64,000 nucleotides of DNA from Micromonospora peucetia (GTDB taxonomy: Bacteria > Actinomycetota > Actinomycetes > Mycobacteriales > Micromonosporaceae): NCBI RefSeq assembly GCF_900091625.1, contig NZ_FMIC01000001.1, forward strand, positions 32,222 to 96,221, in the 5' to 3' direction. The notes below the pieces were generated by a model that worked only from the letters and a program-made list of their open reading frames with translations, was not told where the DNA came from and made no database searches. Within the stretch, counting starts at the first letter, position 1; each line of letters begins with the position of its first letter. Both the position numbers and the translations under genes were made by a program. Positions 9,237-58,748 of the stretch are shown in pieces.

Positions 9237-10718
9237 ATGACCAACCCTCGCACCAACACCCCACCACCACGGCGCCGACCGGCCGGGCGTCGGCCCGGCC
9301 GCCTCGGCTACGCCGCACCCGGGGGTGGCCGGTGGTCGTGGATCGAGCCCTCGACGGAGTACCGGGGCACCACCGTGCAGGTGTGCGGTTTGTACCCGTT
9401 CGGCACCGGCGCGTCGACGCCGATGATCGGCGTCCCGGTCGGCCGGCACCTCTACACCGGCAGCGCCGTCTGCTTCGACCCGATCTCCTGGTACACCCGC
9501 GCCCGGCTGATCAACAACCCGTCGGTGTGGATCGAGGGCGAGCCCGGCATGGGCAAGAGCACGGCGGTGCGGCGAATGGTCCTCGGCCTCACCGCCCAGG
9601 GCGTCACCCCGCTGATCCTCGGCGACCTCAAGCCCGACTACGCCGAGCTGGTCCGCGCCCTCGGCGGGCAGGTGCTGCGCGTCGGGCCCGGCCTCGATCG
9701 CATCAACCCCCTGGACGCCGGCCCGTGGCGGCAGGTCCTCGACCGCGTCGACGAGCGCACCGGCGCCGTCGTGCGCGCCGCGGTGACCGACCGGCGGCTC
9801 AACATGCTCGTCGCCCTGGCCACCCTCGTGCGGCGCGGGCCCGTCACCTCCGACGAAACCACCGTCCTCGCCGCCGCGCTGCGCTACCTCGCCGAGCGGG
9901 AGACCGACACCCCGCCGGTGCTCTCCGACGTCCTGAACGTCATCCGCGACGCCCCAGCCGAGGTGCGCGCGGTCACGCTGTGGCAGGAAGACGGGGACGT
10001 CCCCCGGTTCCGTGAGGACGTCGCTAACCTGCACCGCACTCTGCTGGCGCTGCTGCACGGCCCGCTCGGCGACACCTTCGAGGGGCAGACCACCACGCCG
10101 ATCCGCCTCGACACCCCGGCGGTGTGCGTCGACATCTCCAGCATCGACGACACCGACGAGCTGCGCACCGCCGCGACCCTGCTGTCGACCTGGTCCTACG
10201 GCTTCGCCCAAGTGGAAGCCGCGCACCTGATGGCCGACCTCGGCCTGGCGCCACCGAGAACGTTCTTCACCGTCCTCGACGAGCTGTGGCGGGCGCTGCG
10301 CGTCGGGCACGGCCTGGTCGACCGCGCCGACGGCCTCACCCGGTTGAACAGACAGAAGGGCACCGGCACCGCGTTCATCACCCACAGCCTGGCCGACCTG
10401 GAGGCGCTGCCCACCGCCCACGACCGGGCCAAGGCCAGAGGCTTCGCCGAACGGTCCGCGGTGCTGATGATCGGCCCCTGCTCCGAGCAGGAACTCGACG
10501 CCGTCGCGCGGGTCCGGCCGCTGTCGCAGGCCGAGCGGCGCGAGGTGCTGTCCTGGTCGGCGCCGCCGTCCTGGACCTCGGCTGAGGGCAGCGGCACCGT
10601 CGGCCGTGGCAACTTCCTGATCAAGGTCGGATCGCGGCCGGGTATCCCGGTGCACCTGGAACCCACCGAGACGGAGATGCGCCTGGGCAACACCGACTTC
10701 CGCTGGACTATGACATGA
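9237..10718 (+). CDS. VirB4-like conjugation ATPase
   Basis: This is a 493-residue cytoplasmic ATPase. Walker A is GEPGMGKST near residue 100 and Walker B is in FFTVLDELWR near residue 345. A later conserved motif (GTGTAFITHSLADLE) resembles the VirB4/HerA arginine-finger region. It powers assembly of the transfer channel. It lies 10 bp after the SCO6880-like gene and overlaps the coupling protein gene by four bases. The family normally has an N-terminal non-ATPase part; here that part seems to reside in the upstream SCO6880 protein. Confidence 0.88.
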   Translation: MTNPRTNTPPPRRRPAGRRPGRLGYAAPGGGRWSWIEPSTEYRGTTVQVCGLYPFGTGASTPMIGVPVGRHLYTGSAVCFDPISWYTRARLINNPSVWIEGEPGMGKSTAVRRMVLGLTAQGVTPLILGDLKPDYAELVRALGGQVLRVGPGLDRINPLDAGPWRQVLDRVDERTGAVVRAAVTDRRLNMLVALATLVRRGPVTSDETTVLAAALRYLAERETDTPPVLSDVLNVIRDAPAEVRAVTLWQEDGDVPRFREDVANLHRTLLALLHGPLGDTFEGQTTTPIRLDTPAVCVDISSIDDTDELRTAATLLSTWSYGFAQVEAAHLMADLGLAPPRTFFTVLDELWRALRVGHGLVDRADGLTRLNRQKGTGTAFITHSLADLEALPTAHDRAKARGFAERSAVLMIGPCSEQELDAVARVRPLSQAERREVLSWSAPPSWTSAEGSGTVGRGNFLIKVGSRPGIPVHLEPTETEMRLGNTDFRWTMT

Positions 10719-12496
10719 GCAGCCGGCCCGCCGGGCCGCGCGGTGGCCACGACGACGCCGGCCTGATCGCCGGTGGCATCGCCGCCCTGGTCCTCATTCT
10801 CGCCAGCGGCGCGTGGCTGCCCGTCGTGCTGGCCCGCCCGCCCGGATACACCGGCGGCGGACCGATCCAGGTCGCCGCCGCGGTGCTACGCGGCGACATC
10901 ACCTGGACCACCACCTGCACCCTCATCGCCGTCGCCGAGGTGACCGTCCTGCTGCTCCTGGCCGTCGGCGGGGCTGCCGCCTGGCGGTGGGCACGTCGGC
11001 GCCGCACCCGCGTCGACCCGGCCGCCCGCCGCATGGCCAGCCGCAAAGACCTCGCGCACCTCGGGCCGAAGGGCATCGCCGACAGCGGCCGGCGGCTGCG
11101 GCCCAGCCTCGCCGACGTCGACCGGCCCGAGGCCGACCAGCTCGGCGTGCTGATCGCCTACACCGTCGCCGGCGGAATGCCGCTGCGCCAGTCCTGGGAG
11201 GACATGGCCGTCGACATCTGGGGCCCGCGCACCGGCAAGACCACCTGCCGGGCCATCCCCGCCATCGTCGCCGCCCCCGGCCCGACCCTGGTCACCAGCG
11301 TCAAGGGCGACATCGTCGACGCCACCCGCGACATCCGCGCCGCACGCGGCACCGTGTGGGCGTTCGACCCGCAGCACATCCTCGGCCCCAAGCAGGGCAT
11401 GTGGTGGAACCCCCTGCGCGCCGTGGCCACCATCACCGACGCCCGCCGCCTCGCCGAGCACTTCGCCTCCGCCGAACGCGAGCCCGGCGTCAGCCGCGAC
11501 GCCTTCTTCGACCCGAGCTCCGAGGAGTTGGTGGCGAACCTGCTCCTCGCGGCCGCCGTAGCCGGCCGCGACATTCTCGCCGCCTACCGGTGGGCCGTCA
11601 GCCCCCGCGACGACGAACCCGCGATGCTGCTACGCGAGCACGGCTTCGACCTGCCCGCCGACGCGGTCGCCGGGGTGGTCAACATGCCCGACAAGACCCG
11701 CGGCGGCATCTACGCCGGCGCGCAGAAGATGCTCATGTGCCTCACCGAACCCGCCGTCACCACTTGGGTCACCCCACCCACCCGCGGCGGGGTCCTCGAG
11801 TTCGACCCGGCCGCCTTCGCCGCCAGCACCGACGTGCTGTACCTGCTGTCCCAGGGCGGCCCCGGATCCCCTGCCCCGCTGGTCGCCGCTCTCACCGACG
11901 CCGTCCTGCGTGCTGGCGAGCTGCGGGCCCGCACCTGCCCCGGCCGGCGCCTCGATCCGCCGCTGCTGAGCGTCCTCGACGAGGCCGCGAACATCTGCCG
12001 GCTGCGCCAGCTCCCGGCCCTCTACTCCTTCTACGGCTCCCACGGCCTGCCCATCATCACGATCCTCCAGTCCTATCCCCAGGGGGTCGACGTGTGGGGA
12101 CGCGAGGGCATGCGCAAGCTGTGGTCCGCGGCGAACGTCCGCACCTACGGCGGCGGCGTCGCCGACCCCGACTGGCTGGAAGAGCTGTCCAAGCTCATCG
12201 GCGAGCACGACGTCACGACCAGGTCGACCAGCAGCAGCGGGTCCGGGTGGGGCCAGCGGTCCGTCTCCCACGCCACCCGGCGGCAGCGGATCCTCGACGT
12301 CGCCGACCTGCACGCCCTGCCCCGGGGCCGGATGGTCGTCTACGCCTCCGGCGCCCCGCCCGCGCTCGCCCGCACCGCCCCCTGGCAGACCGGCCCCTAC
12401 GCGGCGGCGATCCGCGCGTCGATCGCCCGCTGGGATCCCCACGAGCGCACCGACTGGACCCTCACCCCCGACGCCCCGCCGGAGCCGACCCCATGA
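10715..12496 (+). CDS. type IV coupling protein, VirD4/TraG-like
   Basis: This 593-residue protein has two N-terminal membrane helices (about residues 15-35 and 65-92). The ATPase domain has Walker A GPRTGKTT near residue 170 and Walker B in LLSVLDEAANI near residue 420. A TraM-recognition-type segment follows (LPALYSFYGSHGLP...QSYPQGV). The protein docks the relaxase-DNA complex at the channel and pumps DNA. It overlaps both neighbours by ATGA, so expression is coupled with VirB4 and the DUF4913 gene. Confidence 0.9.
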   Translation: MSSRPAGPRGGHDDAGLIAGGIAALVLILASGAWLPVVLARPPGYTGGGPIQVAAAVLRGDITWTTTCTLIAVAEVTVLLLLAVGGAAAWRWARRRRTRVDPAARRMASRKDLAHLGPKGIADSGRRLRPSLADVDRPEADQLGVLIAYTVAGGMPLRQSWEDMAVDIWGPRTGKTTCRAIPAIVAAPGPTLVTSVKGDIVDATRDIRAARGTVWAFDPQHILGPKQGMWWNPLRAVATITDARRLAEHFASAEREPGVSRDAFFDPSSEELVANLLLAAAVAGRDILAAYRWAVSPRDDEPAMLLREHGFDLPADAVAGVVNMPDKTRGGIYAGAQKMLMCLTEPAVTTWVTPPTRGGVLEFDPAAFAASTDVLYLLSQGGPGSPAPLVAALTDAVLRAGELRARTCPGRRLDPPLLSVLDEAANICRLRQLPALYSFYGSHGLPIITILQSYPQGVDVWGREGMRKLWSAANVRTYGGGVADPDWLEELSKLIGEHDVTTRSTSSSGSGWGQRSVSHATRRQRILDVADLHALPRGRMVVYASGAPPALARTAPWQTGPYAAAIRASIARWDPHERTDWTLTPDAPPEPTP

Positions 12497-13097: not shown

Positions 13098-13210
13098 TAT
13101 GATGGACACGGCACCGAGGTGCCCCATAAGTACTCCGCAGGTTACGGGTTCGAGCCCCGTCGTCTCCACCAACAAGGGGACGTAGTTCAATTGGTTAGAG
13201 CAGCGGATTG
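13098..13210 (+). tRNA. tRNA-like gene with halves in permuted order (3' half, then 5' half)
   Basis: From 13134 the sequence reads as the 3' half of a tRNA: anticodon-stem strand TCCGC, variable loop AGGTT, T arm ACGGG-TTCGAGC-CCCGT, acceptor strand CGTCTCC, A73 and an encoded CCA (13169-13171). Four bases later (13176) comes a 5' half: acceptor GGGGACG, TA, D arm GTTC-AATTGGTTA-GAGC, A26, and anticodon-stem strand GCGGA followed by TTG. The two halves pair with each other in the acceptor stem (one G-U) and in the anticodon stem (5/5). A TATGAT -10-like box (13098-13103) and a GGCACC/GGTGCC dyad precede the 3' half, and a terminator follows the 5' half. Depending on the joint, the anticodon would be AGU or GGU (Thr), GAU (Ile) or GAC (Val). 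Two element insertions into tandem tRNAs are an alternative. Confidence 0.55.
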
Positions 13211-13214
13211 ACCA

Positions 13215-13250
13215 GACGAGGCCGGAGCGGACCCCCGCTCCGGCCTCGTC
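13215..13250. terminator. 16-bp perfect hairpin terminator after the tRNA-like halves
   Basis: The arms GACGAGGCCGGAGCGG and its exact complement flank a four-base loop. The hairpin begins only a few bases after the 5' tRNA half, as expected for the end of a small RNA transcript. Confidence 0.8.
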
Positions 13251-13733
13251 CGTTCTGATTCACCGTCCGCGTGTCAGGCGAAGCAGACAGTGAAATCCGC
13301 TCGGGTCATGCCCGTCAGCGGTACGGACGCAAGCCATAGCCGCGTCTGGCCGGCCGATGATCACTACCCTGTCTCTCACCCGCACCCGTTCACCGTCGGC
13401 GAGCCCGAGTGACCGGCCGCACGGAGAGGGGTGAGGGTGCGGCAACGCGAAAGGGCCCCGCGGACGTCCACGGGGCCCTCCCGACGGGAGCGAGACGCCG
13501 ACCTTGCGCCGCGACGCGGAAACCCAACGAAGCGACTCGTTTTGTAGTGGGCCCGCAGGTACTCCCGTTGACCTCCGCCGGAACCTCCTGGCACCGCGCC
13601 CACCGACTGTGTGAATGCGGCACTGACCGTCCTCGACCTCGATCTGGACACAAGGTAGCATGGGGTCTGCCGCTTACGCAAACCACTCCGCCACCAGGCG
13701 CTCGCCACACCCCTGCCGCTTTCGCTCCGCCTG
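13251..13733. other. intergenic stretch without a convincing gene
   Basis: No reading frame here has a recognisable product. The only clear structure is an inverted repeat GGGCCCCG / CGGGGCCC at 13453-13478 with a ten-base loop, which could terminate transcription from either side. Base composition becomes less GC-rich towards 13700, as often seen near replication origins. Confidence 0.4.
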
Positions 13734-14943: not shown

Positions 14944-15237
14944 GTGACCGAACAGTCCGTGCTGGCCAACCTGGGCCAGTTCGAGTGGGACTCGACCGAG
15001 TCCGTTTCCTACGAGGTCGCCATCGAGGCGGTCAGCCAGGCGGTCGCCGCCATCACCCCGCTCATCGCCACCGCTCGGCAGCAGGACAACGACGCTGCGG
15101 TGGCGGAGCTGATCGACCTGCGGAAGCAGTGCATCGCCGCGCGTAACGAGCTGCGGCCGACCGACCACCAGGCAGTCGCCGCCACCACGCAGCGCTACCG
15201 AGCCCTGGCCGAGCAACTCGGTCGGCGCGCTGCCTGA
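14944..15237 (+). CDS. antitoxin of zeta-type toxin-antitoxin pair
   Basis: This 97-residue acidic, helical protein starts at GTG behind TAGGAGG. Its stop overlaps the zeta-toxin ATG by one base (TGATG), the usual order and coupling for epsilon/zeta-like modules in actinobacteria. It should bind and block the nucleotide site of the downstream kinase. Sequence similarity to classical epsilon was not recognisable, so the call rests mainly on position. Confidence 0.72.
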   Translation: MTEQSVLANLGQFEWDSTESVSYEVAIEAVSQAVAAITPLIATARQQDNDAAVAELIDLRKQCIAARNELRPTDHQAVAATTQRYRALAEQLGRRAA

Positions 15238-16265
15238 TGCCGATCGACCCGAGGCGCTACCTGCTTCCCGAGGAGCAGTCGCAGCGGATCTTCCGCGAGG
15301 AGATCGCCCCGGAGGAACTCGCCCACGGGGTGTCCCAAGACCAGCCGGTGGTGGTCTTCGTCGCCGGGCAGCCCGGCGCGGGCAAGACTATGACCACCGA
15401 GTCGGTCAAGCGTGAACTCGATCAGCGTGGCGGCGCGATTGTGGTCAACTCCGACTTCTACAAGCCCTACCACCCTGAGTACAGCAGGCTGCTGCGGGAG
15501 GACGACCGCAACGCTGCGCCGTACACCAGCATGGACGGACGCCGGTGGATGGCCGCCGCCGAGCAGTACCTCATCGACCGGCGGGTCGACACGATCATCG
15601 AGACGACGATGCGGGACCCCGGAGACTTCCTGGAACCCGCGGCAATGTTCCGCGCGGCCGGCTACCGGGTGGAGGCCGCGATCATGGCGGTGCCCGAGCC
15701 GCTCAGCCGACTCGGCATCGTCCACCGCTATCACGACCAGGTCCAGAAGCTCGGCCACGGCCGGTTAACCGCGAGGGACAACCACGACGCCTCCTACCAG
15801 GGTGTCCGCCAGGCCGCCGTGGCGATCGACCGACAGCGGGTGGTCGACGTCGCCACCGTCTACCGGCGCGGCAACCACCAGCTACACATCAACTACCTCG
15901 ACGCCGCCGGCGCATGGCGCTGGCCGGCCGGCACCGCGGCAGCCATCGACGCTGAGCGCCAGCGGCCGTGGACCCCCGAGGAGACCAAGGCGTTCGCGGC
16001 AATTGCGAAGCAGCTCACCGACGAGATGGGCCCCGAGTGGCACGGAGAGCTCCGAGACATCGTCCGGCTCACGGCACCTCTCGCCGACCCGCAGACCCCG
16101 CTGCCTCAGATCACCGACGTCTCTCCCGGAATCACGGCGGCCGCGCGAGCGTTCCCGACCAGCACCCGTCAGTCCCTACCCCGGCAGCCGGCGGTGCGCG
16201 ACGCCGAGTCCACACCGCCAAGAGCGAGCCGCGAAGCCTCCAGAGGCGAGGAACCCAGCCGTTGA
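15237..16265 (+). CDS. zeta toxin family kinase
   Basis: This is a 342-residue protein. Walker A is GQPGAGKT at residues 44-51, followed by VNSDFYKPYHPEY, the conserved substrate-side Asp region of zeta toxins, and IIETTMRDP. Zeta toxins phosphorylate UDP-N-acetylglucosamine, blocking wall synthesis. Residues beyond about 230 form an extra C-terminal part, ending in a Pro/Ser/Arg-rich tail, longer than the minimal kinase. Encoded directly after its antitoxin, it would stabilise the element by post-segregational killing. Confidence 0.88.
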   Translation: MPIDPRRYLLPEEQSQRIFREEIAPEELAHGVSQDQPVVVFVAGQPGAGKTMTTESVKRELDQRGGAIVVNSDFYKPYHPEYSRLLREDDRNAAPYTSMDGRRWMAAAEQYLIDRRVDTIIETTMRDPGDFLEPAAMFRAAGYRVEAAIMAVPEPLSRLGIVHRYHDQVQKLGHGRLTARDNHDASYQGVRQAAVAIDRQRVVDVATVYRRGNHQLHINYLDAAGAWRWPAGTAAAIDAERQRPWTPEETKAFAAIAKQLTDEMGPEWHGELRDIVRLTAPLADPQTPLPQITDVSPGITAAARAFPTSTRQSLPRQPAVRDAESTPPRASREASRGEEPSR

Positions 16266-16791: not shown

Positions 16792-18162
16792 TTGTCGGAG
16801 GCTGGTCCTATCGTTGACCGCGTGGTTCTGCAGATCGACACCTCCGCGCCGCTGCTGCGCCCGAGCCAGCTCACCGATCTTGTTCGGGCTGTGAGTCTCG
16901 CTGACCCGGACGACGAGAGTCTGTGGATTGAATGGAAGTCGACCCTCGACCTAAGTACTTCGGCAGGGCTGGAGCAGGTCGTCAAGGCCATCATCGGGCT
17001 GGCCAACCGTGAGCCGGCTGCCGCCGGGCGACGGGCTGGAGGGTACGGCTACCTTCTCGTCGGGGTCGAGCCCGGGTGGATTAATGGTGTGGCGACTATG
17101 GACCCGGAGAAGTTGGTCGGTAAGGTGCGCTCCTACGCCGGCACCGCTATCAGCTGGACGCCGGAGTACATCGCAATCGAGGGGAAACAGGTCCTTGTCG
17201 TGATCGTGGATCCGCCGCAGCCCGGCGACCCGATCCATATCCTCCGCAAGCAGACCGAAAAGTTTAAACCGGCCACAATCTTCGTCCGCCACACCGGCCG
17301 TACCGACCCGGCGAACCCCGACGACTTTGACAAGCTTCAGGCCAGGTTGCTTCAACGGACCCCAAGTCTGCAGCTGTCCGTGGCGGCTATGCCCTCAACG
17401 ATTGAGGAGGCAGCTGACATCCGGGGCGCGGTGAGCCGATGCGTGGATGAGCGCCGGCCTGGTCTTCTCGCCGCACGTCACCAGTCCGGACGGCGTGAAC
17501 CCGACATTGACCTCGTGGGGGTACGCGGCGGACTGCTAGGGCAGCGAGTGCCCGACAGCCGGACCGAGGAACAGTACGCCGAGGAGGTCGAGCAGTTTCT
17601 CCACGACGCGGAAGAGGCTCTCGTGCATCGCGGAGCCTGGGATCTTTTCCGGCACGAGCCGGCCTCGCTCAACGTGACGGTGGCCAATCCCACCGATGTC
17701 GGTTTCGTCGGCGTTCGGCTTGAGTTGCATGTCCCAGGGCAGGTGCAAAGCTACCCCGAGGAGCTGGTCGAGGCCCTGGAAGGCGATCGCCCGGACGCTC
17801 CGCGTGCGCCCAAGCCCCTCGGCACGCCCACCTTTCGCAGCCCCATCCAGCTCGGCGTCCACAACTTCGGGTCGTACATCCCCGCGCCCGTGTTCCCCGG
17901 CCCAGGCCCCTCGTACACCGTGCGAGACACCGGGTCCGTCACCATCGTTTACGACGACTTCGAGTTGCGCGCCGAGGACGCGATGACCTTGGAACCAGTG
18001 CCACTACTCGTACACGAGGAGCCAGGAACGACGCTGACGGCCACCTGGTCCGCAACCGCTAACGGAATACGTGGCCGGATCAGCGGTGAGTTCCCCATCA
18101 CGGTTAGCCCCAGCACCCTTGACCTGGAGAATCTAGATGAGAACGGAGAGAGCGACGAGTAG
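16792..18162 (+). CDS. AlbA/Schlafen-type ATP-binding domain protein
   Basis: This frame of up to 456 residues begins at a TTG at 16792; an in-frame GTG at 16822 is an alternative and neither has a good ribosome binding site. Residues about 38-190 carry the AlbA_2/Schlafen-type pattern: LWIEWKSTLDL, then GLANRE and GGYGYLLVGVE. The remaining 260 residues are unrecognised, with beta-rich stretches. Proteins with this domain occur as regulators and in defence islands. The nearby toxin-antitoxin and CRISPR genes make either role possible. Confidence 0.68.
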   Translation: MSEAGPIVDRVVLQIDTSAPLLRPSQLTDLVRAVSLADPDDESLWIEWKSTLDLSTSAGLEQVVKAIIGLANREPAAAGRRAGGYGYLLVGVEPGWINGVATMDPEKLVGKVRSYAGTAISWTPEYIAIEGKQVLVVIVDPPQPGDPIHILRKQTEKFKPATIFVRHTGRTDPANPDDFDKLQARLLQRTPSLQLSVAAMPSTIEEAADIRGAVSRCVDERRPGLLAARHQSGRREPDIDLVGVRGGLLGQRVPDSRTEEQYAEEVEQFLHDAEEALVHRGAWDLFRHEPASLNVTVANPTDVGFVGVRLELHVPGQVQSYPEELVEALEGDRPDAPRAPKPLGTPTFRSPIQLGVHNFGSYIPAPVFPGPGPSYTVRDTGSVTIVYDDFELRAEDAMTLEPVPLLVHEEPGTTLTATWSATANGIRGRISGEFPITVSPSTLDLENLDENGESDE

Positions 18163-57975: not shown

Positions 57976-58635
57976 ATGATGCCTGCTCAACTGGCGGGTG
58001 CGCTCCCCAATACCGCGGGTGTTGACCTTGCCGCGCACGGCGTGACCAACGGTGATTGGCTCGGGTTCGGCAGCGGCATCGCGATCGGGATGCTGGCCAT
58101 CGCCGTCGCCATCGCCATTGCCTGGTGGCAGCGTTTGATTCACCTGCGGGACCGAGCCGCAGATCGCGCGGAGCAGCGGCGGCGGCAAGACGACGAGCGT
58201 GATCGTCAGCGTCGTCTCGACCATCGTGATGTCTGGCGCGCCGAGTACGAGGAGATCCGCGAGTTGTTCAAGCTCGGAGAGGACATCGCCTACCACTCCA
58301 CGCACAACGGGCCGCACACCACCGCTGAGCAGGCGGGAATCGGACTCGCTGGGTTCAAGATGAAGGCTGACCAGCTAGCCGGCCGGTGCCCCGACGCCCT
58401 GCAGAAGCCGTTGCTGCGGATCGCGACGCTGGCTAACCGCCTGGCCCACGCCGCAGTGCCAGAGACCGCCGACGTCGCGGCCGCATACGCGGCCGCCGCT
58501 GGCCACCCCGTGCCAGCCCATTTGCAGGTGCGCGCCGCTCAGTTGCTGGCCATCGAACAAAACCGGGCAGCTCGCGAACTCACCGAGGAGCTCAGCGCCG
58601 CGTGGCGGACGCTTCGCGACGAATGGGGCACGTGA
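57976..58635 (+). CDS. membrane-anchored coiled-coil protein
   Basis: The ATG follows AGAAAGGACC; 219 residues. One membrane helix (about 32-50) is followed by a strongly charged Arg/Glu/Asp coiled coil (about 55-85) and a helical cytoplasmic domain with LLRIATLANRLAHAAV. The function is unknown. It is preceded by an attenuator-like leader, suggesting conditional expression. Confidence 0.6.
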   Translation: MMPAQLAGALPNTAGVDLAAHGVTNGDWLGFGSGIAIGMLAIAVAIAIAWWQRLIHLRDRAADRAEQRRRQDDERDRQRRLDHRDVWRAEYEEIRELFKLGEDIAYHSTHNGPHTTAEQAGIGLAGFKMKADQLAGRCPDALQKPLLRIATLANRLAHAAVPETADVAAAYAAAAGHPVPAHLQVRAAQLLAIEQNRAARELTEELSAAWRTLRDEWGT

Positions 58636-58748
58636 GCCAGCGGACTGGTTCATGACCCGGCGCCCTTTCGACGGGCACCACACGGCAGGCGACGATCCGT
58701 GCCGTGCCGGCCGCACTGGCTCGTCGACGTCGGCGGCGGGTCGGTTGG

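Follow-up and report, generated by a model that had tools for sequence, protein, structure and literature searches.

In the account of PMC3978253, the permuted tRNA genes of algae and of Thermofilum pendens place the 3′ half, a short spacer, and the 5′ half within one gene. The structure of a bacterial Y RNA has been described as a circular permutation of tRNA (PMC11472068), operons of the rsr-yrl-rtcBA kind have been described (PMC7790460), and yrlA is predicted as possibly acquired in some mycobacteria (PMC9569102). Permuted tmRNA offers a second parallel: as presented in PMC3985003, it is probably processed into two pieces by RNase P and tRNase Z, and the third acceptor pair of tmRNA is a conserved G-U that acts as a determinant for alanyl-tRNA synthetase (AlaRS); the same source says that jakobid mitochondrial tmRNAs are without a tag and pseudoknots. 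Among the papers listed by a literature search, mostly of open-access work, none concerns a permuted tRNA-like RNA of actinobacterial plasmids. The fold of the RNA reported here is already known from YrlA, and what we file as new is a class that lacks the Ro60 stem, bears a terminator of its own and has alanine identity.

Organization of the locus

The window, a stretch of 64,000 nucleotides from Micromonospora peucetia, carries the locus on its forward strand at positions 13098–13250 (Table 1). Both by reading and by script parsing, the locus begins with a −10-like box, and the two tRNA halves, the 3′ one first and a short loop between them, are followed by a 16-bp terminator-like hairpin. 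The 3′ half runs from an anticodon-stem strand (TCCGC) through a 5-nt variable loop and a T arm with the T loop TTCGAGC to an acceptor strand (CGTCTCC), A73 and CCA, and the script pairs the two halves in full, 7/7 for the acceptor and 5/5 for the anticodon stem. The sequence-only reading of this DNA had proposed two tRNA halves in permuted order, and this is borne out by the parse, by the pairing, and by homologues in the same order. Its proposal of one small transcript also stands: the locus looks like one unit with a 16-bp hairpin, but as a promoter it has only the −10-like box, no consensus −35/−10 promoter being found at the locus.

Neither a tRNA by ARAGORN nor any Rfam match at gathering score is reported at 13098–13250. 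The 149-nt segment at 13108–13256 has a folding energy of −73.8 kcal/mol (z −5.5, with 0/200 shuffles as low), much of it from the terminator hairpin, which starts 7 bases past the anticodon stem. A terminator scan alone is not significant (1 found versus 0.6 expected in shuffles), and we count the hairpin as meaningful because of its length and its recurrence in homologues; in the Verrucosispora copy the homologous hairpin has changed pairs. By eye, there is little or no leader in the Nocardia and G815 copies. The host chromosome has no close match to either half, the best tRNA-overlapping match being 78% over 32 bases (E 7.7). We regard the arrangement as more than chance because homologues in the same order exist.

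Table 1. Features of the permuted tRNA-like locus, in window coordinates.
Feature	Position	Strand	Basis
TATGAT, −10-like box (candidate only)	13098..13103	+	Read; full consensus promoter absent
Leader hairpin of the presumed transcript, 5 pairs	13110..13123	+	Fold; presumed transcription start
A37-C38 equivalent, 3′ side of opened anticodon loop	13132..13133	+	Purine 37 in 11/11 members
3′ tRNA half	13134..13171	+	Read, script parse, Rfam YrlA positions 17–92
Acceptor-stem loop A73-CCA-ACAA, 8 nt	13168..13175	+	7 nt in 9/11 members
ACAA linker between the halves	13172..13175	+	Read
5′ tRNA half: acceptor strand, D arm, anticodon-stem strand	13176..13207	+	Read, script parse
TTGAC, 5′ side of opened anticodon loop, U33-G34 conserved	13208..13212	+	Member comparison
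Terminator-like hairpin, 16 pairs (13 G-C)	13215..13250	+	Hairpin scan; homologous hairpin in Verrucosispora copy

Homologues in the same order

The sequence-only reading had suggested looking for the same order elsewhere, and it is present in at least 10 other loci, giving at least 11 members with the window when Nocardia farcinica is counted once; this count covers parsed loci only and is a lower bound, not a measure of rarity. The parser accepted loci with at least 6/7 acceptor and at least 4/5 anticodon pairs. BLAST with the window segment finds a Verrucosispora plasmid (carried by genome G607), with 80.8% identity over 128 bp extending into the hairpin, and four N. farcinica plasmid records, in two of which the arrangement was read. 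Further BLAST queries add the Anabaena sp. 90 plasmid pANA01 and the Gluconobacter plasmid pSJF2-e, both read. A pattern scan of genome contigs gives Rhodococcoides fascians A44A (genome G201) among the matches listed, and a pattern scan of viral contigs, with 46 stretches, gives L582 and L600. Covariance model R1 finds G617 among 160 genomes of the genus and, in the Rhodococcoides family (351 genomes), G815 and G940. Ten of the 11 members lie on plasmid records or on contigs of 9.6 to 124 kb, and the G617 copy is on a 7.87-Mb contig.

BLAST matched 1342 plasmid and 193 phage records at E up to 10, of which a minority was examined. With R1 at E 0.1, all 394 genomes of the class are matched, and the 30 parsed loci are mostly tandem tRNAs and Ro60-type RNAs, a term that in the counts of 46 loci below stands for a parsed permuted module that overlaps no ARAGORN tRNA and is followed by no hairpin of 12 or more pairs, Ro60 adjacency not being part of the definition. 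At 1e-12, R1 matches 51/160 genus genomes, and at 1e-13 it matches 73/351 genomes of the Rhodococcoides family, the best 30 loci being parsed each time. Model R2 at 1e-14 matches 62/394 class genomes, with no new member in the 30 loci parsed.

Several other matches were set aside. Those in Mycolicibacterium, Arthrobacter, Limimaricola, Ketogulonicigenium, Gemmobacter, Pseudomonas and Nonomuraea are ordinary tandem tRNAs by eye, those in Deinococcus and in a Thermus phage contain the 3′ half only, and the annotated ones among the enterobacterial matches sit on tRNA-Trp and tRNA-Asp. A copy in another genome of the same genus (L040:1178–1262; G014:C366) keeps the 5′ half and hairpin but has a diverged 3′ half and lies beside transposase-like sequence; it is likely a decayed copy, and stands outside the 11 members.

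Pairing is kept through sequence change

In a seven-row alignment of the Ro60-free copies, 98.6% of the cells are paired and 10 of the 21 pairs are changed on both sides, values that 0/500 shuffles reach, with slid versions at most 46.9% paired. Close relatives behave in the same way: there are two pair-keeping double changes between the window and Verrucosispora (acceptor 6-67 and anticodon 31-39), one between Verrucosispora and G617 (30-40), two between Nocardia and G815 (4-69 and 6-67), and zero stem changes between Rhodococcoides and G940, and no pair is broken in the five close-pair comparisons. Across the members, pair 27-43 is absent in 3/11 and pair 6-67 in 1/11. The pattern of substitution indicates that the permuted structure is under selection.

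Relationship to YrlA Y RNA and Ro60

The window matches the Rfam YrlA model (RF02553) at positions 17–92 of 114, at 34.7 bits (E 3.4e-6, below the cut-off of 69), and the permuted tRNA-like module of YrlA is thereby present; model positions 1–16 and 93–114, the Ro60/Rsr-binding stem, are unmatched in the window. The T arm, the closed acceptor stem, and the D arm within an anticodon-like stem are common to both RNAs, whereas the window RNA is without the Ro60-binding stem and has its own terminator, the alanine pair and U33-G34, and most of the member genomes tested are without a Ro60 gene. Among nine sources searched, YrlA rows are obtained in seven other members, six of them confined to the module and one (L582) spanning 1–114; two Rhodococcoides-type sources give no YrlA row. 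For Ro60-type loci from 13 sources, 18 of the 24 YrlA rows span 1–114 and six do not.

BLAST from the Nocardia copy also matches 43 Rhizobium plasmid records, and the one examined has a Ro60-domain gene with a divergent RtcR gene, then the RNA, then an RtcB gene. A Xanthomonas record has the order RtcR, VWA protein, RNA, RtcB, RtcA. The YrlA model matches the Rhizobium locus at 1–114 with 64.1 bits and the Xanthomonas locus with 72.1 bits, and both loci fit the operon kind described in PMC7790460.

A TROVE search of the window's contig finds none, and no Ro60 gene thus lies near the RNA; the host chromosome has one TROVE gene (57 bits). Genome-wide, TROVE is absent from five of six genomes with members or the relic (G607, G815, G940, G201 and G014), the exception being G617 (present at 56 bits). 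Nor does TROVE match the plasmid records of Verrucosispora, pNF2, Gluconobacter or Anabaena; for N. farcinica, Gluconobacter and Anabaena the result covers these plasmids only, and L582 and L600 stand outside the set searched. Among five Y RNA-type controls, four match TROVE, two of them below the curated cut-off, and the fifth, a 16.8-kb viral fragment, has no TROVE match. The vWA_Ro60 model scores the same four controls above its cut-off and finds none in five Ro60-free records or genomes; for absence in actinobacteria we use only TROVE, because vWA_Ro60 misses the host's own Ro60 gene. Together, the unmatched stem and the genomes without TROVE point to RNAs that do not need Ro60.

Y RNA-like sequences of other kinds were also seen. 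Several repeats upstream of the TROVE gene on the host chromosome (L320:1490–2100, contig C2) share the motif GGTGCGCAGGCAACGG and look Y RNA-like to the eye, a label that comes from reading and from similar flanks at other Ro60-type loci; Rfam YrlA at E 1 has no match in this interval. The viral contigs L213, L242, L286, L521 and L581 each contain more than one permuted tRNA-like module, with the strong hairpin absent, and so resemble arrays of Y RNAs carried by phages; TROVE has no match on the 16.8-kb L213 contig.

The alanine pair and the opened anticodon loop

G3.U70 is the mark that identifies alanine tRNAs to the cell. Of the loci that were parsed after the R1 searches, 6/6 with the hairpin versus 0/46 of Ro60 type have it together with A73, three of these six being training members or derived from a pattern that forces G3.U70. 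The remaining three give p = 5.4e-5 for the alanine pair, and without G940, whose acceptor stem is the same as in the pattern-forced Rhodococcoides copy, it stands at 2/2 versus 0/46 (∼9e-4). U33-G34 occurs in 6/6 versus 1/46 of the same loci and is free of both biases because neither model R1 nor the hairpin rule covers the loop bases; in the remaining three loci it is found in 3/3 versus 1/46 (∼2e-4). The corresponding counts are 3/6 versus 5/46 for an encoded CCA and 5/6 versus 7/46 for a 7-nt acceptor loop.

Across the 11 members, G3.U70 is present in 10 (Gluconobacter has U3-A70 instead), A73, G34 and purine 37 in all, U33 in 10, a 7-nt acceptor loop in nine and an encoded CCA in five. 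Independent support for G3.U70 is thinner than these counts, because 3/11 members come from patterns forcing it and one of these three has the same acceptor stem as G940. The would-be anticodon varies among the members (Val, Asp, Ile, Asn, Gly) and the acceptor end stays alanine-like. U33, G34 and purine 37 give the impression of a retained anticodon loop, though the strand is open there.

Comparison with permuted tmRNA and permuted tRNA genes

The T arm and acceptor of the window match the permuted tmRNA model RF04321 at positions 36–95 of 213 (31.6 bits, below the cut-off of 47), and a full-length RF00023 row scores 21.1 bits, also below a cut-off of 47. An alanine acceptor end with G3.U70 is present in the window in permuted order, as in permuted tmRNA, the likeness extending over the T arm, the acceptor 3′ strand with CUCCACCA, the loop, and the GGGG 5′ strand. 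The window RNA differs in being short, without a tag or pseudoknot region, and in having an ordinary tRNA D arm and a 5-bp anticodon stem: RF04321 is matched at 36–95 only, and by eye the leader and linker have no room for a tag reading frame and pseudoknots. Nearest to it in size among tmRNAs are those of jakobid mitochondria, as PMC3985003 presents them.

With the permuted tRNA genes of algae and T. pendens the locus shares the order of the halves. However, those transcripts are BHB-spliced to a circular precursor that gives a standard tRNA, whereas in the window there is hardly any space between the opened loop and the terminator, and the anticodon mismatches the acceptor identity.

Plasmid setting and neighboring genes

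The window lies on a contig of 96,221 bp (C1), the genome's other contig being 7,269,546 bp. C1 has a coupling-protein gene at 10715–12496, and its backbone is largely common to the Verrucosispora NA02020 plasmid (ParA, 93.5% over 248 aa; TraG-like, 74.7% over 645 aa; also FtsK-like, GntR and PP2C). Because of this gene and the shared backbone we treat C1 as a plasmid-like contig.

Downstream of the RNA, P0001 (13823–14779) encodes a replication-initiator-like protein by weak PHROGs matches. Its relatives lie about 1 kb from the Rhodococcoides and G940 copies, and the gene is common to the window, Rhodococcoides and G940 only; relatives are present in 2/160 genus genomes, one being the window's own, and none are found in viral contigs. 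That the RNA is part of a replication module was considered and rejected: the module in G033 is 84% identical in DNA, its similarity to the window beginning at 13441, and no permuted RNA is parsed there. No gene is common to the flanks of all copies, which makes a host factor the likely partner.

A Zeta-toxin-like gene is also near the RNA (15237–16265; 169.5 bits). ARAGORN calls a 93-base tRNA-Arg(TCG) at 58633–58725, for which Rfam has none at gathering score and which is not tRNA-like by eye; it is probably a false call.

Proposed explanation and alternatives

Sequence comparison establishes the order of the halves, their pairing and its upkeep by double changes, the missing Ro60-binding stem, the member genomes without a detectable Ro60 gene, and the conservation of G3.U70, A73, U33 and G34. 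On this basis, assignment of the RNA to a class of Ro60-independent permuted tRNA mimics is very probable. As the best explanation of the whole we propose a plasmid-borne RNA of permuted tRNA fold, an alanine-type mimic with two-piece maturation, a proposal whose chances we put slightly below even. The transcript would pass from the 3′ side of the opened anticodon loop through the T arm, the loop-closed acceptor stem and the D arm to the other half of that loop, and then into the terminator. By analogy with permuted tmRNA, cuts of RNase P and tRNase Z type would open the acceptor loop, leaving a two-piece tRNA-like molecule held together by the acceptor and anticodon stems, and with CCA encoded or added this molecule could be alanylated. 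The RNA may act in trans on a core part of the host's tRNA machinery; the most likely partner is alanyl-tRNA synthetase, as suggested by G3.U70 with A73. That the RNA is in fact alanylated is possible, with the balance tilted against it.

We prefer the two-piece alanine mimic, with an uncut decoy close behind, because of the alanine pair, the match to the permuted tmRNA model, and the tmRNA parallels as PMC3985003 gives them. The loss of the encoded CCA in close relatives fits CCA addition and equally an uncut loop. Several points count against the preferred explanation: CCA is encoded in 5/11 members, the independent support for G3.U70 is thinner than its counts, Gluconobacter has its U3-A70, the D arm is not that of tmRNA, L582 has the full YrlA span, and there is no partner gene. 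In its most specific form (a plasmid-encoded, tag-less, permuted, tmRNA-like two-piece alanine RNA with an open anticodon loop, cut by host RNase P, charged by AlaRS and representing the type of a bacterial Ro60-independent permuted tRNA family) we advance it only tentatively.

An alternative we rate as somewhat unlikely, though worth weighing, is that the intact permuted RNA is an uncut decoy, occupying a tRNA-binding enzyme such as an anticodon nuclease, another tRNA-acting toxin or AlaRS; without a closed anticodon loop, it could bind yet escape cleavage. The sequence as encoded has the uncut topology, and YrlA has been suggested as a competitive inhibitor of anticodon nuclease in PMC7790460. 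Schlafen/AlbA_2-domain genes are seen 3.6 kb downstream of the RNA in the window (16792–18162; 32.7 bits) and adjoining the G940 copy (a relative, 39.8% over 191 aa; 24.2 bits, below the cut-off), but no such gene is common to all loci, and a decoy would not need to keep the alanine pair.

It is improbable that the RNA is a YrlA-type Y RNA working with the chromosomal Ro60 (Rsr) of the host. The permuted module is the same and the host chromosome and G617 have TROVE genes, but the YrlA Ro60-binding stem is unmatched and five member or relic genomes have no TROVE match.

We give equally little credence to a permuted gene for a decoding tRNA, as the sequence-only reading had put it, in which ligation of the transcript at the anticodon loop would give a circular precursor, with opening at the acceptor loop as the next step. 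The conserved U33, G34 and purine 37 would suit such a tRNA, and joined halves are read as tRNAs by ARAGORN in 11/11 members; but so are 8/8 joined Y RNA controls, and joining the halves therefore does not discriminate. In topology the RNA agrees with the tRNA-like module of YrlA Y RNAs, themselves not tRNAs, the anticodon varies over an alanine-like acceptor end, and the terminator comes within 7 bases of the anticodon stem. We know of no BHB splicing in bacteria.

Integration into tRNA anticodon loops is common, and true tandem tRNAs give the same BLAST pattern, but a remnant of tandem tRNAs with elements inserted on both sides, as also raised by the sequence-only reading, or an integrase attachment site, is very hard to sustain when the same order recurs at the other loci, diverged copies keep their pairing by double changes and have hairpins of their own, close matches to the halves are missing from the host chromosome, and the member loci read have no intact tandem pair, with no overlapping ARAGORN tRNA in 11/11 members.

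Returning to the preferred two-piece alanine mimic and the class to which it is assigned, the bacterial permuted tRNA-like RNAs that can be placed are otherwise tied to Ro60, as Y RNA, or to trans-translation, as tmRNA. If the assignment is true, a mainly plasmid-borne, Ro60-free class that keeps the alanine pair would make the permuted tRNA fold a reusable module of mobile elements, and would permit a direct test of whether bacteria process and charge a nicked, two-piece tRNA.
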